Shown here: in pieces, positions 1,379 through 47,337 of the stretch | How positions within the stretch are numbered: position 1 is the stretch's first letter | Layout: each line of letters begins with the position of its first letter | Source of the DNA: a virus | Length of the DNA stretch: 55,621 bases | Virus record (IMG/VR): IMGVR_UViG_3300033153_013781 | Span: 1-55,621 of that record | Strand: one strand, 5' to 3' | Position numbers and translations under genes: made by a program | The notes under the pieces: generated by a model | Database searches by the model: none | What the model was told of the DNA's origin: nothing | Seen by the model: only the letters and a program-made list of their open reading frames with translations

Positions 1379-1451
1379 TAGCCCGAGTGGGGATCGAACC
1401 CACATTCGCCTGTTTCGAAGACAGGTGCTGTTCCATTTCAGCTTCCGGGCT
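1379..1451 (-). tRNA. tRNA-Arg(TCG)
   Basis: Acceptor AGCCCGG/UCGGGCU, anticodon arm CCUGU-CUUCGAA-ACAGG (anticodon UCG), T-loop UUCGAUC. The upstream protein gene (1438-1662) reads into its first 14 nt and takes its TGA stop from the D-arm. Confidence 0.92.
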
Positions 1452-5209: not shown

Positions 5210-7354
5210 CTATACCTGGGCCAGATAGGCAGTTTTTTGAAACCAATTTCGGGCAGCAACAAGTTGGCGACTTGCTAATAATCTTTGTTGCTCCGCCCAG
5301 AAGTGCTGGACAGTAGTTTCGGCTAAGAGTTGCTCTTGTACCAAACTCCAATGTTCTTTTTGTGCTTCTGCTAATTCTTGACGGGTATTTTTGCCATCGC
5401 GAATTTTTTGAGCGTATTGCTCATCTATATTTTGAATCCGTTGTGCAATGTCCCTTTTCTTTTGAACCGTTTGATAAATTACAGCATCAGGAGTTTCATC
5501 TAAAACCATGTAATGAGTGGTAACAGGATTCTGACTGTTAACTCGAAATGCTCTACCTTCAACTTGATCAGCATCTTTGGGAGTCCATGAAATATCATTC
5601 ACAATAACATTGCCTACAATATTCGGCAAATCCAACCCAGTTCCAGATGAAAGAACTCCCAAAACAAAAACTTTTATAGGGGAGTTTGGGTCACGAAAAT
5701 TTTCAATCAAATTGCTTTTCATAGCTGTTCCAGTTCCCTCGCCCATAGTCATAGCAACTTCCATCCCATATGGTTGAAGTTGAGCTCTAAGTGAACTTTC
5801 TAATGCTTGAGCAGGTTCCACAAAGCAGGTGAAAATCAATACCTTTTCTCCCTGTTGTATCAACTGCATGGCTTTGTTTACAGAATGTGGGACTTTTTGA
5901 AGAGCCATTTCAATACGATAGGCGGTCAATGTAGTAAGCGGAGATTCAGGAGCATCTGTTTTTTTCATGTTATTTAAACGAGTTTGAACAGCTTCTGTCA
6001 AATTTGCCCTAATATTATCATCTGTGGGTAACATTTCTGGATTACGAAAATGATCAGGCAGATCAGGCTTAACTTGTTTCTTAGTTTTGCGCTGATAAAC
6101 ATCTGTTAAAATCAGCATAGCATGAAGACCAGTGACACTTTCTATTTGTTCGTCTACAACTGAGCGTAGGTTCTCTTCGGAAAGTTGTTTTACTATGTTT
6201 AGTTTGGAATTAAGATCTAATTCATCAAATCCCCCATACTCTTGTCTTGTGAAATTTAAGAAATCTTTGGCACTGGATGGATCAACTAAATATTCTCCTT
6301 GTTGTCCCCTTATTTTTTTAGTTTTCATGCCGGTGTATTTCTGATTAAAACGACGAGGAGTCATAGATCCCATGGAATTTCCAACCGCAAGCAACTGACG
6401 ATGTAAATCAGAAGGCTTGTTTGCAGAAACGGTTGCACTGGCTCCCCATTTAAAAGGAATTGTTTTGCCGATAATTTCTACATTTTTGGAAGTATTTGAT
6501 GTAGAATTTTTAACCATATGTGATTCATCCATAATCATTACATCAAAGTTTTGCAATCTAAGTTGTTGCATAAGAGCTTCAACTTGAGCTTGTCGTTGAA
6601 CTTTGTTACCTGCCATTTCAGCATCAACCATTTCACTGGCATCTTCTGCTTCTTCAGTATTCTCCATTTGATTCTCTTGTTGAGCTTGAGTTAAGACATT
6701 AATTTTACCATATGAAAGAACAAGCCATTTAGCATTGGGTTGACTCATGTCTTCGATGCGTAATTTAACGGGTGATTCTGGGCTCTGCAAAAATTCATCA
6801 GTATCAGGTAATCCAGCAACTTGTAAGATTCTTTTTGCGAATTGATTAATTACGCTTGCCAAGGTAAAGATAAGAATTTTTCCTGATGCCAGGGTAGATT
6901 TATGACCCTCTTCGGCGTCCCATAAATTTTTATCTTTAGTTCGCATATCTGCTGCAATAATCAATTGTTCTGTTTTCCCAACACCTGTTTCATCTCCCAG
7001 GAGAGCTGATTGTCGCGAATAAAGCCATTGAACTCCTTTCCCTTGTAAAGGGAAAAGTCGATAAGGATCTTGTCCTGTTTTTCGTATCCAATACTCATTA
7101 ACTTCTGCTTGAAATTTTTCTTCATCAGGAATAAACATCCCATGCTCATCTTTTAACCGTTGACGATTAGCCCGTGCTTTATAATATCCATCCAAAATTC
7201 CATTAACAATTCTGCCAAGTGTAACATGCTCGGAATTTCTTAACTCAGAACCCTTCATCAAAGCTTTTTGAAATAAATCTGTCGTATCGAATTTGCTCAT
7301 AGCAAGCAATTTTTGGAAATCTTGCCTTACTCTTTCCTTGCATGTAATATTCAC
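5210..7354 (-). CDS. SNF2/SWI2-type superfamily 2 helicase
   Basis: About 714 residues. Motif I GDETGVGKT lies at about 120-128, motif II MDESH at about 275-279, motif III GASATVS near 300, and motif VI DQVEGRAFR near 620, all typical of SNF2-like ATPases that translocate on double-stranded DNA. The insert after motif Ia is Glu-rich. Likely roles are replication or recombination remodelling or displacement of host proteins. The start is unsure: a GTG at 7354 or an ATG at 7300 (MSKFDTTD). Either way it overlaps the end of 7245-8372, suggesting coupled translation. Confidence 0.85.
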   Translation of the reverse strand: MNITCKERVRQDFQKLLAMSKFDTTDLFQKALMKGSELRNSEHVTLGRIVNGILDGYYKARANRQRLKDEHGMFIPDEEKFQAEVNEYWIRKTGQDPYRLFPLQGKGVQWLYSRQSALLGDETGVGKTEQLIIAADMRTKDKNLWDAEEGHKSTLASGKILIFTLASVINQFAKRILQVAGLPDTDEFLQSPESPVKLRIEDMSQPNAKWLVLSYGKINVLTQAQQENQMENTEEAEDASEMVDAEMAGNKVQRQAQVEALMQQLRLQNFDVMIMDESHMVKNSTSNTSKNVEIIGKTIPFKWGASATVSANKPSDLHRQLLAVGNSMGSMTPRRFNQKYTGMKTKKIRGQQGEYLVDPSSAKDFLNFTRQEYGGFDELDLNSKLNIVKQLSEENLRSVVDEQIESVTGLHAMLILTDVYQRKTKKQVKPDLPDHFRNPEMLPTDDNIRANLTEAVQTRLNNMKKTDAPESPLTTLTAYRIEMALQKVPHSVNKAMQLIQQGEKVLIFTCFVEPAQALESSLRAQLQPYGMEVAMTMGEGTGTAMKSNLIENFRDPNSPIKVFVLGVLSSGTGLDLPNIVGNVIVNDISWTPKDADQVEGRAFRVNSQNPVTTHYMVLDETPDAVIYQTVQKKRDIAQRIQNIDEQYAQKIRDGKNTRQELAEAQKEHWSLVQEQLLAETTVQHFWAEQQRLLASRQLVAARNWFQKTAYLAQV

Positions 7355-9352: not shown

Positions 9353-9355
9353 TAA

Positions 9356-9428
9356 TACCCTGGACGAGACTCGAACTCGCATTCTCCACCTTGAAGAGTG
9401 GCGACTTAACCAATTTGTCCACCAGGGC
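9356..9428 (-). tRNA. tRNA-Glu-like with 6-nt anticodon loop
   Basis: Acceptor GCCCUGG/CCAGGGU and T-arm GCGAG-UUCGAGU-CUCGU are intact. The anticodon arm CCACU-CUUCAA-GGUGG has only six loop bases, one fewer than normal. It resembles tRNA-Glu(CTC) at 3690-3761 and would read as UUC if one U is missing. It may be a decaying gene, a sequencing indel or a frameshifting tRNA. Confidence 0.6.
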
Positions 9429-9433
9429 AAAAC

Positions 9434-9513: not shown

Positions 9514-9730
9514 ACATCGCGAAAGTTCTTGTTGCAAGGAATAAACGTAGAGCTCTATCCAATTGAGCTACAGCGGCGTAGTGCCACCGTGGGTATCCGA
9601 CTCTCCGAATATTTATGGATATGCCGTATTCCTGGTGGCGAAATAGAAAAGCCGCTGACAGGACTCGAACCTGTAACCTCTGGTTTAAAAGACCAATTGT
9701 TTGTATGCACCAAATGTAGGTCGCGATGTC
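9514..9730 (-). tRNA. Circularly permuted tRNA-Lys(TTT)
   Basis: The halves are in reversed order on the minus strand. The 3' half (9695 down to 9650) comes first: GGU-CUUUUAA-ACCAG, variable loop, T-arm ACAGG-UUCGAGU-CCUGU, acceptor CAGCGGC. A 72-nt spacer (9649-9578) follows, then the 5' half (9577 down to about 9549): acceptor GCCGCUG and D-arm GCUC...GAGC. Rejoined, the acceptor pairs 7/7 and the anticodon stem CUGGU/ACCAG 5/5, with anticodon UUU. The locus ends in 9-bp inverted repeats TCGCGATGT (9514-9522 and 9722-9730). The junction falls inside the 5' strand of the anticodon stem, ambiguous by one base. Confidence 0.88.
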
Positions 9731-9733
9731 TAA

Positions 9734-9804
9734 AGCGTCCGACGAGAATCGAACTCGTATTTTAACGTTGGCAACGTTATGTAATACCACTATACCACGG
9801 ACGC
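9734..9804 (-). tRNA. tRNA-Gly(GCC)
   Basis: Ordinary-order tRNA between the two permuted genes. Acceptor GCGUCCG/CGGACGC, anticodon arm UAACG-UUGCCAA-CGUUA (anticodon GCC), T-loop UUCGAUU. Confidence 0.92.
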
Positions 9805-9811
9805 ATATAAA

Positions 9812-9970
9812 ACATCGCAAAAGTTTTTAATGCTGAAATAAACTATGCGCTCTGCCAATTGAGCTATCTCCCGTGAAAACCGATTGTCGTAATCGGGAGA
9901 ACAGGATTCGAACCTATATCACATCCTCCGAATGGAATTGTTTGTATGCATTAACCATTGGTTGCGATGT
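9812..9970 (-). tRNA. Circularly permuted tRNA-Arg(TCG)
   Basis: The 3' half (9936 to 9893) comes first: UCC-AUUCGGA-GGAUG, T-arm AUAGG-UUCGAAU-CCUGU, acceptor UCUCCCG, discriminator A. A 19-nt spacer (9892-9874) follows, then the 5' half (9873 to 9846): acceptor CGGGAGA and D-arm GCUC...GAGC. Rejoined, the acceptor pairs 7/7, the anticodon stem CAUCC/GGAUG 5/5, and the anticodon is UCG. The outer ends are 9-bp inverted repeats ACATCGCAA/TTGCGATGT. The upstream flank carries GCATACAAACAAT and the downstream flank GTTTATTTC, both shared with the permuted Lys gene. It lies 1 nt after the stop of the HNH gene 9972-10685. Confidence 0.88.
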
Positions 9971-20959: not shown

Positions 20960-21265
20960 GGGCTCCTAGCTCAATTGGTTAGAGCAAACGACTCATCTAT
21001 ATGGTGCGTTCATAAGGAAACTTTTGAAATGAACGGGATGAATTCAGGGGAACCTCAGCATGTAATGATGGTGGCAATCCTGAGCCAAGCCTGCGGTACA
21101 CCGCAGGAAGGTGCAGAGACTAGTGGAGAGGTATAGTCCTCTTAATAACCACATTAGCGTCCCGCGTTCTAACGTAAAGTCGAGGATGGTGATATAGTCC
21201 AGCGAGTCAAGAAATTGACATTAAGCTGAATCGTTAGGTTGTGGGTTCGAGTCCCACGGAGCCCA
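20960..21265 (+). tRNA. tRNA(CAT), Ile2 or Met, split by a group I intron
   Basis: Exon 1 (20960-20996) is acceptor GGGCUCC, D-arm GCUC...GAGC, anticodon stem AACGA and loop CU-CAU. Exon 2 (21229-21265) is AA-UCGUU, variable AGGUU, T-arm GUGGG-UUCGAGU-CCCAC, acceptor GGAGCCC, discriminator A. Joined, it is a perfect cloverleaf. The anticodon-loop pattern ACUCAUAAU and the location fit tRNA-Ile2(CAU), whose C34 needs lysidine, but elongator Met cannot be excluded. Confidence 0.93.
20997..21228 (+). ncRNA. Group I intron (IC3-like) in the anticodon loop
   Basis: 232 nt. The 5' exon ends in U, the intron ends in G (21228), and an internal guide GUG (21004-21006) pairs with exon CAU including the U-G wobble. 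Core segments GGCAATCCTGAGCCAA and GGTGCAGAGACTA match the P4-P6 and P7 regions of cyanobacterial and plastid tRNA introns, and GATATAGTCC is the 3' strand of P7. No nuclease is inside it. An HNH gene lies just downstream on the other strand. Confidence 0.93.
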
Positions 21266-23162: not shown

Positions 23163-23228
23163 AATGAAATATAAACAGAAACAGAAATTTAAACGCTTGT
23201 GATGCGGGCTAAGCTATGCCTGTATTAT

Positions 23229-23303
23229 GGGGGTATAGCTCAGTCTGGTCAGAGCATCGCACTTTTAATGCGAGAGTCGTGAGTTCGAATCTCACTGCCC
23301 CTA
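23229..23303 (+). tRNA. tRNA-Lys(TTT)
   Basis: Acceptor GGGGGUA/UGCCCCU, anticodon arm UCGCA-CUUUUAA-UGCGA (anticodon UUU), T-arm GUGAG-UUCGAAU-CUCAC. Ordinary order, unlike the permuted Lys(TTT) at 9514-9730. Confidence 0.9.
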
Positions 23304-23316
23304 TTAAGGAACAAAA

Positions 23317-31602: not shown

Positions 31603-31698
31603 TAATATGTTTTTGCCGAGCTCGAAAACAGAGGCAGGAAATGACCTTGCTTTGGACAATTTATACCACTGCGAAATTGATAATTATAGGAGATGCCC

Positions 31699-34600
31699 AT
31701 GTCGCCATTGACGCCCGTTGCTCAACAAGTGTGTGAAAAACGTTACTTTCAAAAAGATAAAGATGGAAAAATAATAGAGGATTGGAGCCAATTGGCTTCA
31801 CGCGTAGTTAGCCATGTTTGTAAAAATGAAGACGATGATTTTCAGAAGAATATTTATGATCTAATATATAAGACAGAATTTTTACCCAATTCACCCTGTT
31901 TAGTAAATGCTGGAACTACTACCAAAAGCAAAGGTTTAATGGCATGTTTTGTCACTAAAGCACCAGAAGATTCGTGGATAGGAATGTTGGAAAATATTGG
32001 TAACTTTGGACATATTGCCAGACAGGGTGGTGGTTGCGGGGTAGATTTTAGTAAAATCCGTCCTGAAAATGATCCTGTTTTTGGTTCAACCCATGCCAAA
32101 GCATGTGGACCCATTGAACACATGAGAATGATTTCTGAAGTTATGAGTTCTATTACTCAATCTGGATTTCGTGGCATGGCCTGTTGCTCATATGATACAT
32201 TGATTAGCACGGACTCTGGATTTATTCAATTGGGAGAAATCGTCGAACAAAGCATGATTGGGCTTGGCATTCATACTCAATTTGGACCTGCCACAATTAC
32301 TAATGCTTGGTGCAATGGAGAGAAAGAAGTTTTTGAAATAATTACTGAAAAGGGTAATAAAATAAAACTTACTGGCGATCATAAAGTCTATGTAATTGAT
32401 AGATATAACGGAAAAAATCATGGAAAACTTACCAAAAAAATAAATCAAATTGGGGTGTGGAAAGAAGTTAAAAATATTGATCTGCAAAATGATTGCTTAG
32501 TTCTGAATCTAGATGAAAAACCTTTTGCAGCCAAATATCAATATGTCAATGGAATTAAAGTGGATGAACAATTATCATCTTTAGTATCTTATACGAAGTG
32601 TGATGGGCTCTTCAAAAGGTACAATAGTTGCCAAAGATTGGAACTGGCGCTAGATTCTAAAGAATCCATTGATTATTTTATGATGACTGAACATGTTCAT
32701 TTTAATCAACTTCCCGAACGAAGCAATGGAATAACAGTTTTAAGAAAAGAAGGCAAATCCGTAGAGTTTTTGAAGTATTTTGGAGAATTCGGAACATATC
32801 ATTGCGATATTCCTTCTGTTATATTTAAATCTCCCAAAACTGTTGTATCGTCTTTTATTCAAGCTGCATTCGACGCAGAAGGCACAGTGGATGTAAGCGA
32901 TGATAGGTGTCGTATTATAACTGGTATGACTAGCATTGAATTTGTTGAAGATTTACAAATTCTTTTAGGCATGTTCGGTATTCAAAGCCAACTAAGACGA
33001 GATGTAGTACATGTGAATAAAGATGGAATCACCCGTCATAATATGCATTATCTAAGCATTAGTAATAAATGGCACGTTAAAAGATTCATGGAAGAAATTG
33101 GATTTTTGTCGAATCGCAAAAATGAAGCTGCAAGAAAAGCATTAGAAAAAATGAATTTTGATAAAATTGGACGTGGCAACACTCCTTCTGCCAAAATTAT
33201 TCACCGAATTGCTCGGATAGATTCTTTGGGAGAAATGCCCGTTTATGATATATCTACTTCTAATGAAACTTTTTTGGCAAACAATTTAACTGTTCACAAT
33301 TGTATGTCGTGTTTACGTGTTGATCATCCGGATATTCTGAAGTTTATTATTTGCAAACAGCGTGATAGAGCTTTAAAAACTTTGTTAAAAGAAGATATTT
33401 TCAATCATTATGATGCCCTAAAAGGGAATACGGATGAACAACTGAATGTAGTTCTAGATAAATTTATTTCTAATTTTAATATTAGTGTGTTTACAACTGA
33501 TGATTTTATGCAAAAAGTAGAAAATGATGAAGAGTATGATTTGGCATTCAATGACAAAATCTATCAAACAGTTAAAGCTCGCGATATTTTTGATATGATT
33601 GTTAAAAATGCTTGGCAAAATGGCGATCCAGGCATGTTGTTTCATAATACTATTAATGACGGTCCTTATAAATATTCTAAACAAAAAATTACAGCTACAA
33701 ACCCGTGCGTTGTTAAAGGCTCTTTAGTTGCTGGAGCACTTGGATGGGAGCCTGTTGAAGATATTAAAGTTGGGGATAAAATTTTCTCCCAAGGTCGTTT
33801 GGTCCCGGTTACAAGCATAGAAGTAAATGAAGACCACAAGGTTTTCCGTGTTGAGTTTACTGATGGTGATTATATCGATGCGACTGCTGCACACCGATTC
33901 AAGTGTGTAGTTGATAAACAGTACCAATATCTTCGGTTGGACGAAATAGGAGAAGGACACCGAGTTGTTGTGGAACCTATTGATATTGACCAAATGGAAT
34001 ATAGAGGCATAGGATACTTGACATCTTATGCTCTGAATAACAAAGAAGAGTGCAAAGGTAACGACGAATTTTGGTCGCAAAGAGATTTAGGATTGCTTGT
34101 AGGAGCTGTCTTAGGGGATGGCTGTTTTACAGAACGCAAGACAAATCGAAAAATGGTTGATGTTTCCTTTGGAAGAGCAGAGTCTGATTGGCAGTCGAAA
34201 TACTGCGAGCTTTTAAAAAAATATGGTGTTTCGTATTACAATGAAACTACCAACCAAACTATCAGAGTTCGAAGTAATTATCTTCTGGAAATACTTGAAC
34301 ATGCGGGAGTGCAACGTAATAAAGCTCCTAAAAAGAAAATTCCAGATAAATTTATGCATTCTAACGATAAAGAATTGCTGGCGGGAGTATTGGATGGACT
34401 GTTTAGTACAGACGGGAATATGTCTCTCAAAAAAGACAATCCGATGCTTCGACTGACTAGTTCTAGCTACGAAATGTGTCGTCAGGTACGACGTGTCTTA
34501 CTGTCGTTTGGAATCCATGCAAAAATATACAAAACAGAGAGAACGTCACATATTTACGACGATCCGAATTGTGGTCCTCGGGAAATATCTTCTGAAAATC

Positions 34601-36165
34601 CCAAATATGATGTAGTCATAATGAACGTTGGCATTAGGAGATTTGCAGACAAAATAGGACTGACTCATCCTCAGAAAAATGAGAAACTTCAAAAATGTGC
34701 CAAAAATTATCACTATATTGGCGATGCAGGTGTCTCGAAGATAAAATCCATAACTGAATTGCCTGGGTTGCATACCGTATACGATCTTTTCGCTGAAGAA
34801 ACAGACGAATGGAACGTTAATGGGTACATACAACAGGGGTGCGGGGAACAACTTCTTCCTTTTTTTGGCAGCTGCAACCTCGGAAGTGTCGATGTTTCTA
34901 AGTTTTATAATGAAGACAGAGAAGTGATGGAATGGACTCGTTTGGGGAATGCCATAGAAACAGCAATGCAATTTTTAGACAATGTTATTGACGTTAATAA
35001 ATTCCCTACGCCAGATTTTGCAAAATGGGCAAAAGAAAATAGACCTGTGGGTCTTGGAATTATGGGTTGGGCTGATTTATTACTCAAAATGAAAATCACT
35101 TACGGCAATGAAGAGTCTTTTAAATTTGCTCAAAAAATAGGACGATTTTTTGAAAAAACTGCTCATGAAAAATCAGTCCAATTAGGAGAAGAAAGAGGTA
35201 CTCCTAAGTCATGTAAATTTAAAGAATTAGATTTTCGTCGGAATGTAACGACTTTGTCTATTGCTCCAACGGGCACTATTAGCTTATTAGCAGGATGTTC
35301 AAGTGCGATAGAGCCCGTGTTCAGTGCCACTATTTATCGATATGACAATACGGGAGCGAAGGAGATGAAACACCCTTATGCGAAAAAATCATGGTTTCGC
35401 TGTGCTTCAGATTTAACATGGGAAGAGCACGTAGGCATGCAGGCTGCATTCCAAACTTATATCGACTCTGCAATAAGCAAAACGATCAATCTTCCTAATT
35501 CTGCAACAATTGAAGACATCTCTAATGCATATATGATGGCTTGGAAAAGTAAATGCAAAGGCATTACGGTCTATAGAGATGGATGCAAATCAACACAAGT
35601 TCTTAATACTTCCAAAAAAGGAATGATGGGTAGCAATAATGCCAAACCTCGTCCTAAAGAAGTTGAAGTTGATATATTTAAAACAAAGGCAGATGGATAT
35701 GATTGGCATGTTATAGTGGGAAAAGTCGATGACGTTCCTTATGAAGTATTTGCTGTTAATGGGAAGCAGGAGCTTCCTAGTTCCGCAAAAGTAGTTAAAC
35801 GAAAGAAGCTTCATTATTCTCTCATGACAGATAAAGATGAAATTATTATAGATAATCTTGGAATGGAAGAAGATGAAATCCATCCTAGAATTGGAGCAGA
35901 AACGCGACGATTTAGTTTAGAATTACGTCATGGTATCGATCCTAAAAACATTGTAACTGCGATAGATAAATCTTCAGAGGTAGTAACCAGTTTTACTAAG
36001 GCAGTGGGACGGATACTCAAAAATAAATACATTAGTGCCGAAGATCTTCGCGAGATTTCAGGCATCCCGTGTTTTGATTGCGCTAAAAAGGGTAAAAATG
36101 TTGAAATGATTTCGGAAGCAGGGTGTTGGAAATGTCCCGTATGCTTTTCGAGTAAATGTGGCTAA
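31699..36165 (+). CDS. nrdJ: Class II (B12-dependent) ribonucleotide reductase with two inteins
   Basis: 1,488 residues including two inteins. Exteins show LPNSPCLVNAG, RQGGGCGVDFS, FRGMACMSCLRVDHPDI (after splicing), NPCGEQLLPF..GSCNLGS with the radical-site Cys, and PTGTISLLAGCSSAIEP, then a C-terminal Cys cluster (CFDC...CWKCPVC...KCG) typical of NrdJ. It reduces ribonucleotides to deoxyribonucleotides using adenosylcobalamin and needs no oxygen. The start is the second ATG, which lies 6 nt after AGGAG. Both inteins sit at highly conserved substrate or active-site positions. Confidence 0.93.
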   Translation: MSPLTPVAQQVCEKRYFQKDKDGKIIEDWSQLASRVVSHVCKNEDDDFQKNIYDLIYKTEFLPNSPCLVNAGTTTKSKGLMACFVTKAPEDSWIGMLENIGNFGHIARQGGGCGVDFSKIRPENDPVFGSTHAKACGPIEHMRMISEVMSSITQSGFRGMACCSYDTLISTDSGFIQLGEIVEQSMIGLGIHTQFGPATITNAWCNGEKEVFEIITEKGNKIKLTGDHKVYVIDRYNGKNHGKLTKKINQIGVWKEVKNIDLQNDCLVLNLDEKPFAAKYQYVNGIKVDEQLSSLVSYTKCDGLFKRYNSCQRLELALDSKESIDYFMMTEHVHFNQLPERSNGITVLRKEGKSVEFLKYFGEFGTYHCDIPSVIFKSPKTVVSSFIQAAFDAEGTVDVSDDRCRIITGMTSIEFVEDLQILLGMFGIQSQLRRDVVHVNKDGITRHNMHYLSISNKWHVKRFMEEIGFLSNRKNEAARKALEKMNFDKIGRGNTPSAKIIHRIARIDSLGEMPVYDISTSNETFLANNLTVHNCMSCLRVDHPDILKFIICKQRDRALKTLLKEDIFNHYDALKGNTDEQLNVVLDKFISNFNISVFTTDDFMQKVENDEEYDLAFNDKIYQTVKARDIFDMIVKNAWQNGDPGMLFHNTINDGPYKYSKQKITATNPCVVKGSLVAGALGWEPVEDIKVGDKIFSQGRLVPVTSIEVNEDHKVFRVEFTDGDYIDATAAHRFKCVVDKQYQYLRLDEIGEGHRVVVEPIDIDQMEYRGIGYLTSYALNNKEECKGNDEFWSQRDLGLLVGAVLGDGCFTERKTNRKMVDVSFGRAESDWQSKYCELLKKYGVSYYNETTNQTIRVRSNYLLEILEHAGVQRNKAPKKKIPDKFMHSNDKELLAGVLDGLFSTDGNMSLKKDNPMLRLTSSSYEMCRQVRRVLLSFGIHAKIYKTERTSHIYDDPNCGPREISSENPKYDVVIMNVGIRRFADKIGLTHPQKNEKLQKCAKNYHYIGDAGVSKIKSITELPGLHTVYDLFAEETDEWNVNGYIQQGCGEQLLPFFGSCNLGSVDVSKFYNEDREVMEWTRLGNAIETAMQFLDNVIDVNKFPTPDFAKWAKENRPVGLGIMGWADLLLKMKITYGNEESFKFAQKIGRFFEKTAHEKSVQLGEERGTPKSCKFKELDFRRNVTTLSIAPTGTISLLAGCSSAIEPVFSATIYRYDNTGAKEMKHPYAKKSWFRCASDLTWEEHVGMQAAFQTYIDSAISKTINLPNSATIEDISNAYMMAWKSKCKGITVYRDGCKSTQVLNTSKKGMMGSNNAKPRPKEVEVDIFKTKADGYDWHVIVGKVDDVPYEVFAVNGKQELPSSAKVVKRKKLHYSLMTDKDEIIIDNLGMEEDEIHPRIGAETRRFSLELRHGIDPKNIVTAIDKSSEVVTSFTKAVGRILKNKYISAEDLREISGIPCFDCAKKGKNVEMISEAGCWKCPVCFSSKCG
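32182..33300 (+). other. RNR intein 1
   Basis: 373 residues. Cys1 in CCSYDTLIST, block B TGDHKVY, block E FIQAAFDAEGTVDV, C-terminus TFLANNLTVHN followed by Cys. The first LAGLIDADG motif is degenerate (SYTKCDGLF), so the nuclease may be weak or dead, but splicing residues are intact. Removal gives FRGMA-CMSCLRV, the length expected for the RNR motif. Confidence 0.9.
33706..34839 (+). other. RNR intein 2 with Gln-Gly C-terminus
   Basis: 378 residues between ATNP and CGEQLL. Cys1 in CVVKGSLVAG, block B ATAAHRFK, two good LAGLIDADG motifs (LVGAVLGDG and LAGVLDGLFSTDG). The end reads VNGYIQQG before Cys+1, where inteins normally have His-Asn. Without the terminal Asn, cyclisation cannot occur in the usual way. 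Confidence 0.88.
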
Positions 36166-41687: not shown

Positions 41688-42857
41688 CTACTTCAATGAC
41701 TCAACTTGCTCAAAAGCACAATACTTCTGAGTAGAGGTCGAATCTCCATAGGCGTAACTTGGGGTAGTCCCTACCCTACTTATATTCAAAGCAGCATTCA
41801 AATCTCTATCAATCTCTAAATCACAATGAGGACAAGAGTGAATTCTATCTGCTAATGTTTTTGGAACAATCTTTCCACAACCTGAACACATTTGAGTTGT
41901 ATTCTTGGGGTTGACTAATCTAACTTCCACACCAGCTTCTTCCGCTTTGTATTGAGTATATTCAATTAGTTTTCTCCAAGCACAATCACTAATATGCTTT
42001 GCTAAATTATGGTTACGAACCATTCCTCTTATGTTTAATTGCTCAAAAGATATACTTCCGTAATTCTCAACCAATTCTCTACTCAACTTATGTAAGAAAT
42101 CTTCTCGTTGATGTCTTATGGTTCTATATACTTTTGCCAATGTAATACGCTGTTTATTTCTATTTGCACTGCCCTTTACTTTTTTAGATAATCTACGTTG
42201 TTTCAATTTGAGTTTGTCCTCTGATTTCAACAAGTGACGTGGATTCTCAAACGACTTACCATCGGAGAGAAAAGCAAAGGTTTTAATGCCTAAATCTACT
42301 CCTATGGCTGGTTTTGAGGACTTGACTGGAGATGTATTCTCTTGCTCACAAGTAAGGATTACAAACCACTGGTCAACGTCTCTGACTATTCTACAGGTTT
42401 TTATTGCTCCTTCTGTGGGTCGTGAGTATTTGAGTTTTACATCACCAATTTTGCTCAGTTTAATTCTCCTACAATCATTCGTTAATCTGAACCCCGATTG
42501 AGGAAAACAAAAAGAGTTGTAACGATGCTCAGATTTGAAGCGAGGAAAACCTGCTTTTACTTTCTTTCCTGTCTTACGTTCTTTTATTCTCCGAAAGAAA
42601 TTTGTGAATGATGTTTCAATTCGTTTAAGAGTATTTTGAAGCACCTGAGAGTGAACTTGTTTTTGATAATCGTTCTTGTTTTGTTTAAGGGCATTTGCTT
42701 GGTCACAATAAGATGTAGATTTTTTAGTTTCTTTATAGGAGTTTATTCGTTCTGATAAGGCATTATTGTACAAATATCTACAGGTAGTTAGAGTTTGGTT
42801 TAGAACAGACTCTTGTTTACGAGTAGGATATATTCTGTATTTGAATGCTTTAATCAT
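41688..42857 (-). CDS. tnpB: TnpB RNA-guided nuclease
   Basis: 389 residues, full length. RuvC catalytic residues are visible: GVDLG (Asp188), SFEQLNI (Glu272) and DRDLNAALN (Asp352), with the zinc finger CSGC...CPHC at 324-345. TnpB cuts DNA guided by an omega-RNA made from the element's right end, here the region around 41655-41800. It appears active and protects the element from loss. Its start overlaps the end of tnpA by 8 nt. Confidence 0.95.
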   Translation of the reverse strand: MIKAFKYRIYPTRKQESVLNQTLTTCRYLYNNALSERINSYKETKKSTSYCDQANALKQNKNDYQKQVHSQVLQNTLKRIETSFTNFFRRIKERKTGKKVKAGFPRFKSEHRYNSFCFPQSGFRLTNDCRRIKLSKIGDVKLKYSRPTEGAIKTCRIVRDVDQWFVILTCEQENTSPVKSSKPAIGVDLGIKTFAFLSDGKSFENPRHLLKSEDKLKLKQRRLSKKVKGSANRNKQRITLAKVYRTIRHQREDFLHKLSRELVENYGSISFEQLNIRGMVRNHNLAKHISDCAWRKLIEYTQYKAEEAGVEVRLVNPKNTTQMCSGCGKIVPKTLADRIHSCPHCDLEIDRDLNAALNISRVGTTPSYAYGDSTSTQKYCAFEQVESLK

Positions 42858-43257
42858 TATGTTTTTGATTTTCTATATACTTTTTGATAGTCGAGGAACT
42901 AACTGTGCCAGCACTGCCGTAATAGCACCCTCTACTAAATAAGCCACTTCCCCAGAAATGAGCCTGTTTGAGACTTTGAAACTTTTTGAACACATCAACT
43001 GTCAAGATAGACTTAATTGTTGTAGCAATAGTCAGTGGAGCCACTTTAGGTGGTGCAGAAACGAATAAGTGAATGTGGTCACTCATCACTTCTAAAGCGA
43101 GTTGTTCCCACTGATACTGATTACAGATACTTTCAATTTGTTCTTTCACATAAGTCTCGATTTCTCCTGATAATACCTTGTGTCTGTATTTTGTTACAAA
43201 CACAATGTGGTAATTCAGGTTGTAGACAGCGTGTTTAGTTTTCTTGTTTTTGCTCAT
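42850..43257 (-). CDS. tnpA: IS200-type transposase TnpA
   Basis: 135 residues from MSKNKK. HUH motif HIHLFVS (His61, His63), catalytic Tyr127 in IKKYIENQ, LNYHIVFVTKYR near the N-terminus. A single-strand peel-and-paste transposase. It overlaps both neighbours. Confidence 0.94.
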   Translation of the reverse strand: MSKNKKTKHAVYNLNYHIVFVTKYRHKVLSGEIETYVKEQIESICNQYQWEQLALEVMSDHIHLFVSAPPKVAPLTIATTIKSILTVDVFKKFQSLKQAHFWGSGLFSRGCYYGSAGTVSSSTIKKYIENQKHND

Positions 43258-43417
43258 CAGTCTCATCTGGCAAAGGATATGTATTTAGAATAGCTTCACG
43301 GATGAGGTCTGAATGAGTTAAATCTTGGTCACGCTCAAGAGATAGAAAATGAGCCATACGTTTAACGTGTTTGACGTATTTTGGTTCTAATCTTACGCTG
43401 ATTACAGTAGACTCCAT
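43235..43417 (-). CDS. Ribbon-helix-helix protein inside the IS605 element
   Basis: 60 residues. VISVRLEPKYVKHVKRMA...LTHSDLIREAILNTY has the strand-helix-helix layout of Arc/CopG repressors. It is the first gene of the element and overlaps tnpA, so it likely controls transposase expression. Such a partner is not part of the classic two-gene IS605. Confidence 0.72.
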   Translation of the reverse strand: MESTVISVRLEPKYVKHVKRMAHFLSLERDQDLTHSDLIREAILNTYPLPDETDEQKQEN

Positions 43418-46506: not shown

Positions 46507-47337
46507 ATGCCAGATAAAAACGAAATTATTAATAAGCAACTAGTGATCAAAGAAGTTATTGCAAAGCTTAAACACTTTACAAAACTCTATGGCATTAAAT
46601 CTATTTTTGTAGTAGGTGGATATACTCGTGAACACTATTTAGGAAAGATATGGAGAGTTAAAGATATAGATGTAGCTTCAGCTTATCATGATCAAGCAAG
46701 ACAATTAGGAGGATTATTTGCTTCAGAAATTTTGCATTCTGCTCCAAAATTTTATGAAAGAACCGGAACTGCGGCAATAGAATATCCATCTGAGTTTGGA
46801 TTCATTCGGGTTGAATTTCAAGGTGACAGCATTAATACATATATGCATAATCAAGAAGTTAGAACATGGATGCAATCTCAAGGCATAGATGACGTTCCTT
46901 TAATGAATAATATCTATGGACGTGATTTTACTATCAATTCTCTTATTTATTCTCTTCACAACGAAACCATGTATGATCCTACTGGACAAGGAGTTCGTGA
47001 CCTAGATCGAGGAAGAATTCGTTCTCTTTTACCGGCTCCTATGCTTATTAAATACAATCCATTAGCTGCATTGCGAGCTATCAGATTTGCTATTCAATAC
47101 GATTATCATATCGATTCTGACCTTAGACTGGCTATTAAAGACGCTGGAATTGACAATTTATGCAACTCTTTATCTAAAGAAAGAATTGTGAAAGAAGTGG
47201 TTAAAGTTCTAAAAACTAATGGCCCAGAGGCTCTGGATTTACTAAAAAGGTTTAATTTAGATAGGATTTTGCTGCATCCCGACGTAAAGAAGTATGTATA
47301 TTTAGGATCAGAGGACGAAAAAAATGCTAAAAATTAA
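46507..47337 (+). CDS. cca: CCA-adding tRNA nucleotidyltransferase
   Basis: 276 residues. The class II nucleotidyltransferase core is visible: VVGGYTREHYLG with GG at 37-38, KDIDVAS with Asp53 and Asp55, GRDFTINSLIY near 140 and PLAALRAIRFAIQY near 190. This enzyme builds or repairs the CCA end of tRNAs. None of the phage tRNAs encodes CCA, so a phage copy makes sense. It is placed oddly, among virion genes, and is shorter than bacterial enzymes. Confidence 0.85.
   Translation: MPDKNEIINKQLVIKEVIAKLKHFTKLYGIKSIFVVGGYTREHYLGKIWRVKDIDVASAYHDQARQLGGLFASEILHSAPKFYERTGTAAIEYPSEFGFIRVEFQGDSINTYMHNQEVRTWMQSQGIDDVPLMNNIYGRDFTINSLIYSLHNETMYDPTGQGVRDLDRGRIRSLLPAPMLIKYNPLAALRAIRFAIQYDYHIDSDLRLAIKDAGIDNLCNSLSKERIVKEVVKVLKTNGPEALDLLKRFNLDRILLHPDVKKYVYLGSEDEKNAKN

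Follow-up and report, generated by a model that had tools for sequence, protein, structure and literature searches.

Two permuted tRNA-like elements in a virus fragment are probably Y-RNA-like mimics that carry anticodon arms

The virus record IMGVR_UViG_3300033153_013781, a 55.6-kb fragment with a terminase (hereafter the window, meaning the whole stretch of 55,621 nucleotides that was analysed), carries two minus-strand elements, at 9970-9812 and 9729-9514, in which a tRNA is encoded with its 3' half first and its 5' half second. Put together, the halves correspond to tRNA-Arg(UCG) and tRNA-Lys(UUU), respectively. We consider both elements to be, probably, Y-RNA-like (YrlA-type) tRNA mimics with complete anticodon arms. 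Within the window, this interpretation is supported by a match to a covariance model of related elements, a basal helix formed by the flanks, a U at position 73 of the Lys copy and the presence elsewhere of ordinary genes for tRNA-Arg(UCG) and tRNA-Lys(UUU).

Paired flanks enclose two permuted tRNA bodies

Along the minus strand, the Arg element runs from a flank through the tRNA 3' half, a 20-nucleotide (nt) spacer and the tRNA 5' half to a second flank. A reading of this region made from the letters alone (the sequence-only reading) had described the inverted order of the halves, an acceptor that pairs at 7/7 positions (CGGGAGA/UCUCCCG) and, on rejoining, an anticodon stem that pairs at 5/5 positions (CAUCC/GGAUG) with the anticodon UCG. 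All of this is borne out, and ARAGORN calls the rejoined 72-mer as tRNA-Arg(tcg). The stem takes CAU from the 5' half and CC plus the loop from the 3' half; that it is completed only by an element's own two halves was also correct, as shuffling halves among loci destroys the pairing. The Lys element, absent from the sequence-only reading, is called as tRNA-Lys(ttt) when its halves are rejoined, and halves swapped between the two copies give no tRNA call. A scan for permuted modules matched twice in the window itself but in none of 60 order-1 Markov windows; a chance origin of the modules is therefore excluded.

The flanks of each element pair with one another (ACATCGCAA/TTGCGATGT in the Arg copy, ACATCGCGA/TCGCGATGT in the Lys copy), forming a helix P1 of 9 base pairs (bp) followed by a helix P2 of 7-8 bp. 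Common to both copies are ACATCGCRACC...GCATACAAACAATT upstream and A(C)GTTTATTYC...GCGATGT downstream; P1 differs between them by one compensatory A-T to G-C change, and the sequence near the junction is nearly identical. Folding each copy as a single strand gives P1 and P2 together with the acceptor stem, the T arm and the D arm (z -2.8 and -3.1). Inspection of the junctions of the window copies shows no strict bulge-helix-bulge motif, defined for algal and archaeal permuted tRNAs as a 3-nt bulge, 4 bp and a 3-nt bulge (PMC3978253): an AAAC/GUUU helix is possible there, with loops of 4/1-2 nt and 3-4/6 nt instead of 3-nt bulges. The flanks have no Rfam ribozyme or intron match.

A widespread class of related elements

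Relatives were gathered by pattern scans of viral and bacterial contigs together with a script. This yielded 165 candidate permuted modules, from viral contigs and in some cases from bacterial genomes; a smaller part of them resemble spurious matches within coding sequence. In the majority class (121 modules, the CAGCAA class), the 5' side reads P1-(T)ACAGCAA. P1 has at least 7 exact pairs in 106 of these 121, compared with 3.4% in shuffles; the frequency of the CAGCAA and GTTTATT motifs themselves is no evidence, because the retrieval patterns contained one or the other. An alignment of 37 sequences has a covariation score of 0.765, against 0.213 when shuffled and 0.09-0.18 when slid, to which covariation in the anticodon stem, T stem and acceptor contributes with the help of selection, because members were picked for anticodon-stem pairing and the scan demanded T-stem and acceptor pairing. 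P1 pairing was used only for placing the 3' end of each extracted stretch.

The sequence-only reading had proposed a covariance-model search for permuted tRNAs in related phages as a check. A covariance model of the CAGCAA class, model R1, was built from the 37-sequence alignment and matches both window copies, one at 58.4 bits (E 2.8e-9) and the other at 53.9 bits (E 2.4e-8), with both matches spanning the whole model (positions 1-136), and the next-best match in the window reaches 26 bits. The P1-(T)ACAGCAA bulge of the CAGCAA class does not occur in the window copies, whose 5' flank instead reads GCATACAAACAATT, and targeted searches of other contigs returned no further member of this flank type. 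Judged on flank sequence, the window elements are a separate flank type, because their motif was found nowhere else. An exact 14-mer flank search in IMG/VR gave at least 120 matches, with no permuted tRNA among the matches listed, and a relative whose terminase is 71% identical (G001/L359) has no permuted element and one tRNA call in 65.8 kb.

The related elements vary in how much of a tRNA they retain. On contig L396, elements with and without an anticodon arm have common flanks, and in some relatives the acceptor stem is capped by a UUCG, UACG, GCAA or GUAA loop. Contig L396 also carries a ROOL RNA and a partial OLE RNA match, at 5852-6477 and 187-276, both on the minus strand. For partial model matches in Tunturi_5 and LR745208, the module scanner did not confirm the permuted order, and we set these aside.

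Genuine anticodon arms on ill-fitting bodies

The anticodon stem is completed across the split in 46 of the 121 CAGCAA-class modules, against 7 when halves are shuffled. Loops of these 46 have U33 in 93%, R37 in 100% and A38 in 98% of cases, compared with 25%, 79% and 56% in the non-pairing rest of the class. Because stem completion exceeds the shuffles and the loops are well formed, the anticodon arms are genuine where present.

The bodies tell a different story. By nearest neighbour, the isotype of the body agrees with the anticodon in 9/70 permuted elements and in 331/500 ordinary tRNAs of the same loci, a test that is informative but coarse because the reference set holds 966 tRNAs and the classifier is 66% accurate. 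With this coarse classifier, the nearest isotypes of the window bodies are Pro and Asn, not Arg and Lys. At the discriminator (position 73, N73), the mean cognate frequency is 0.34 in permuted and 0.82 in ordinary tRNAs. The Arg copy has an A at this position, which fits its anticodon (61% of Arg tRNAs), whereas the U of the Lys copy does not fit and is present in 4% of ordinary Lys tRNAs. Together, the mismatch of identity, the tetraloop-capped acceptors and the armless elements with common flanks form the pattern of a tRNA mimic, not of a charged tRNA.

Links to Ro60 genes and Y RNAs

A second class of permuted modules occurs near Ro60-family (TROVE) genes, in both phages and bacteria. By comparison of coordinates, TROVE lies ~0.3-3 kb away in L342, L331, L245, L290, L378, L492, L536, L524 and L504, and farther off in L370 (~11 kb) and L242 (~45 kb). 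The TROVE-near modules are therefore Y RNAs, by linkage, and those of L378 bear full anticodon arms. When two class A elements were compared by BLAST with named phages, no match was full-length, but the search pointed to the cultured Streptomyces phage TunaTartare (L581, NC_070784.1). It has two unannotated permuted modules, at ~68.41 kb and ~69.49 kb, and just after them a TROVE gene at 70.3-71.2 kb; the first module is conserved across 32 phage records. Like the window elements, the TunaTartare Y RNAs are permuted tRNA-like modules, but they have other flank motifs. TROVE proteins have been noted in some phages by a jumbo-phage survey (PMC7824862).

Tandem arrays of at least three permuted Y RNAs stand beside TROVE in Chitinophaga genomes (L492, 4604-5235; L536, 66-703), where all matches to the Rfam YrlA model fall short of the gathering score. 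TROVE and RNA ligase genes lie close to each other, ~2-5 kb apart, in two large viral contigs (G002, TROVE at 283459-284490 and RNA ligase at 286605-287027; G005, TROVE at 102507-103172 and a weak RNA ligase match at 97345-98028).

In YrlA Y RNAs, which act together with Rsr and PNPase, the D, T and acceptor arms imitate those of a tRNA (PMC8394870). Both window copies have this layout, with permuted D, T and acceptor arms above a long basal stem made of the 5' and 3' ends (P1 and P2), as in the YrlA family (RF02553; PMC8394870). They differ from YrlA in their full anticodon arm, their flank motifs and their spacers of 20 and 73 nt. The Rfam YrlA model matches the Arg copy at 29.4 bits (E 3.5e-4).

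Weighing the explanations

As Y-RNA-like mimics, the elements would act as uncut RNAs. By its sequence, the transcript can fold so that its 5' and 3' ends pair in a long, interrupted basal helix; above it stands a permuted tRNA body of T arm, acceptor stem with spacer and D arm, and bases of both sides complete the anticodon arm at the junction. The RNA would be neither cut nor rejoined. Its basal helix would be the site where a protein binds, Ro60/TROVE in one related class. The tRNA face may engage enzymes that act on tRNA, for example modification enzymes, PNPase or anticodon nucleases, and the anticodon arm may serve as bait or as a contact surface while the phage infects its host.

Several observations weigh against this interpretation. 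Well-formed anticodon loops (U33, R37, A38) are not needed by a pure mimic; both window copies rejoin to perfect cloverleaves, and their spacers are long and look removable. No TROVE gene was found in the 55.6-kb window, an incomplete record, or in the CAGCAA-class contigs searched, most of which are fragments. The window flank motif did not appear in the other contigs searched, the isotype test is coarse, and the 29.4 bits against RF02553 compare with a gathering score of 69, a test that is insensitive because the TROVE-linked relatives also fall short, at 45.9 bits or less.

A rival explanation, which we regard as possible but unlikely, is that the elements are true circularly permuted tRNA genes yielding a working tRNA-Arg(UCG) and tRNA-Lys(UUU). 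An endonuclease of unspecified kind or a ribozyme-like cut at the flank/exon borders would excise the RNA and a ligase would circularise it; RNase P, 3' processing and the phage CCA-adding enzyme, a tRNA nucleotidyltransferase that the window does encode (46507-47337), would then open and mature the circle. Red and green algae and Thermoproteota archaea likewise have permuted tRNA genes with the 3' half first, then a spacer, and a cloverleaf on rejoining, and each window copy has an upstream 3' half and a 5' half that make one cloverleaf. At 20 and 73 nt, the spacers are similar in length to those of algal permuted tRNAs (1-74 nt, PMC3978253). In archaeal permuted tRNAs the spacer may be as short as 1 nt (PMC3978253), so a short spacer by itself does not settle the matter. 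Splicing is also favoured by the ARAGORN calls for rejoined but not swapped halves, by the near identity of junction-adjacent sequence in the two copies and by the genuine arms of the related class, completed only by their own halves. However, the window copies differ from the algal and Thermoproteota genes in having no bulge-helix-bulge by inspection, and the related class differs from them in the misfit of body and N73 and in its many members without an anticodon arm. Same-layout relatives with capped acceptors, and the ordinary tRNA genes that already supply both decoding functions, also count against splicing, as does the lack of an RtcB or RNA_ligase match in this incomplete fragment; neither is universal among carrier contigs. 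We favour mimicry over splicing because of the anticodon-body mismatch, the mostly non-cognate N73, the capped acceptors of some elements and the absence of a strict bulge-helix-bulge in the window copies. It seems doubtful to us that phages, this one and perhaps dozens of other lineages, encode real permuted tRNAs whose RNA is cut out of a paired flank, circularised and matured into working tRNAs, and we know of no splicing route of the permuted-tRNA kind in bacteria or phages. The sequence-only reading had expected a normal tRNA: the rejoined cloverleaf stands, but a working tRNA is disfavoured by the wider family, because relatives lack anticodon arms or have capped acceptors, because body identity and discriminator base misfit the anticodon, and because the flanks pair into a long basal helix like that of Y RNAs, without a bulge-helix-bulge, and some relatives adjoin Ro60 genes.

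Two further explanations dispense with ligation or with function altogether. It is quite improbable that the RNA works in two pieces, with the acceptor opened by RNase P and 3' processing and the unligated pieces held together by the paired flanks, as in two-piece tmRNA. P1 and P2 would keep such pieces together and the spacers are long enough for removal, but a long helix extending from the anticodon stem would probably hinder decoding. Two-piece (permuted) tmRNA has the same permuted gene order and base-paired pieces, whereas the window elements are split in the anticodon stem and have no tag reading frame; ARAGORN finds no tmRNA in the window. The elements could also be non-functional debris, that is, tRNA pieces rearranged by homing endonucleases or recombination, given that HNH genes are scattered across the tRNA array and one directly adjoins the Arg element. 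This we consider the most improbable account: two copies with different bodies have common, mutually pairing flanks and a compensatory change, the Markov windows contained no scan match, and the 165 candidate similar modules with their strong covariation already contradict it.

Genomic context

An ordinary tRNA-Gly(GCC) gene lies between the two permuted elements, and the ordinary tRNA-Arg and tRNA-Lys genes are elsewhere in the window (Table 1). Adjoining the permuted elements, at 9355-9429 on the minus strand, ARAGORN reports a tRNA of undetermined identity with a two-base anticodon call (tc) and an unusual anticodon loop. The best terminase matches among named phages are ~25% identical and include Streptomyces, Microcystis and other large phages. 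The window has a single group I intron, on the plus strand at 20984-21221 (Rfam RF00028, 94 bits). A 1490-amino-acid open reading frame at 31693-36165 (+) resembles ribonucleotide reductase with two intein-like insertions, and adjacent open reading frames at 41688-43266 (-), in the structural region, resemble TnpB and TnpA of IS200/IS605.

Table 1. Components of the permuted elements and ordinary tRNA genes in the window
Feature	Positions	Strand	Details
Arg 5' flank, ACATCGCAACC...GCATACAAACAATT	9936..9970	-	Sequence, fold
Arg basal helices, 5' strands	P1 9970-9962, P2 9954-9948	-	
tRNA-Arg 3' half	9893..9935	-	Positions 30-31, anticodon loop UCG, 39-43, variable loop, T arm, 3' acceptor strand, position 73 (A)
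Arg spacer remainder	9874..9892	-	Spacer is 20 nt counting position 73; possible CCGATT/AATCGG hairpin using the acceptor end (sequence)
tRNA-Arg 5' half	9845..9873	-	Acceptor 5' strand, D arm, positions 26-29
Arg 3' flank, AGTTTATTTCAGCATTAA...TTGCGATGT	9812..9844	-	Sequence, fold
Arg basal helices, 3' strands	P2 9833-9827, P1 9820-9812	-	
tRNA-Gly(GCC), ordinary, between the permuted elements	9734..9804	-	ARAGORN; Rfam 67.3 bits
Lys 5' flank, ACATCGCGACC...GCATACAAACAATT	9695..9729	-	Sequence, fold
tRNA-Lys 3' half	9650..9694	-	Positions 29-31, loop CUUUUAA, 39-43, variable loop, T arm, 3' acceptor strand, position 73 (U)
Lys spacer remainder	9578..9649	-	73-nt spacer; internal GCCACC/GGTGGC hairpin; sequence, fold
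tRNA-Lys 5' half	9549..9577	-	Acceptor 5' strand, D arm, positions 26-28
Lys 3' flank, ACGTTTATTCCTTGCAACAAG...TCGCGATGT	9514..9548	-	P1 3' strand 9522-9514; sequence, fold
tRNA-Arg(tcg), ordinary	1379-1451		ARAGORN
tRNA-Lys(ttt), ordinary	23228-23304		ARAGORN

Implications

Y RNAs with tRNA-like domains were known already. The sequence-only reading knew of no described phage case; a passage of a Vibrio phage paper does mention reports of YrlA in several phages (PMC7765460, citing Sim and Wolin 2018), and our literature search returned no paper on anticodon-bearing Y RNA forms or phage permuted tRNAs. Phage forms with a complete, well-formed anticodon arm thus appear to be undescribed, a provisional statement because the main Y RNA papers and preprints lay outside the search.

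As mimics, the elements would be candidates for decoys that draw off anticodon nucleases and other host defences directed at tRNA; a study of RNA repair in Salmonella proposed the YrlA tRNA-like domain as a competitive inhibitor of an anticodon nuclease (PMC7790460). If they are spliced, they would reveal a new RNA-processing pathway. On either reading, permuted tRNAs and Y RNAs are connected in sequence.
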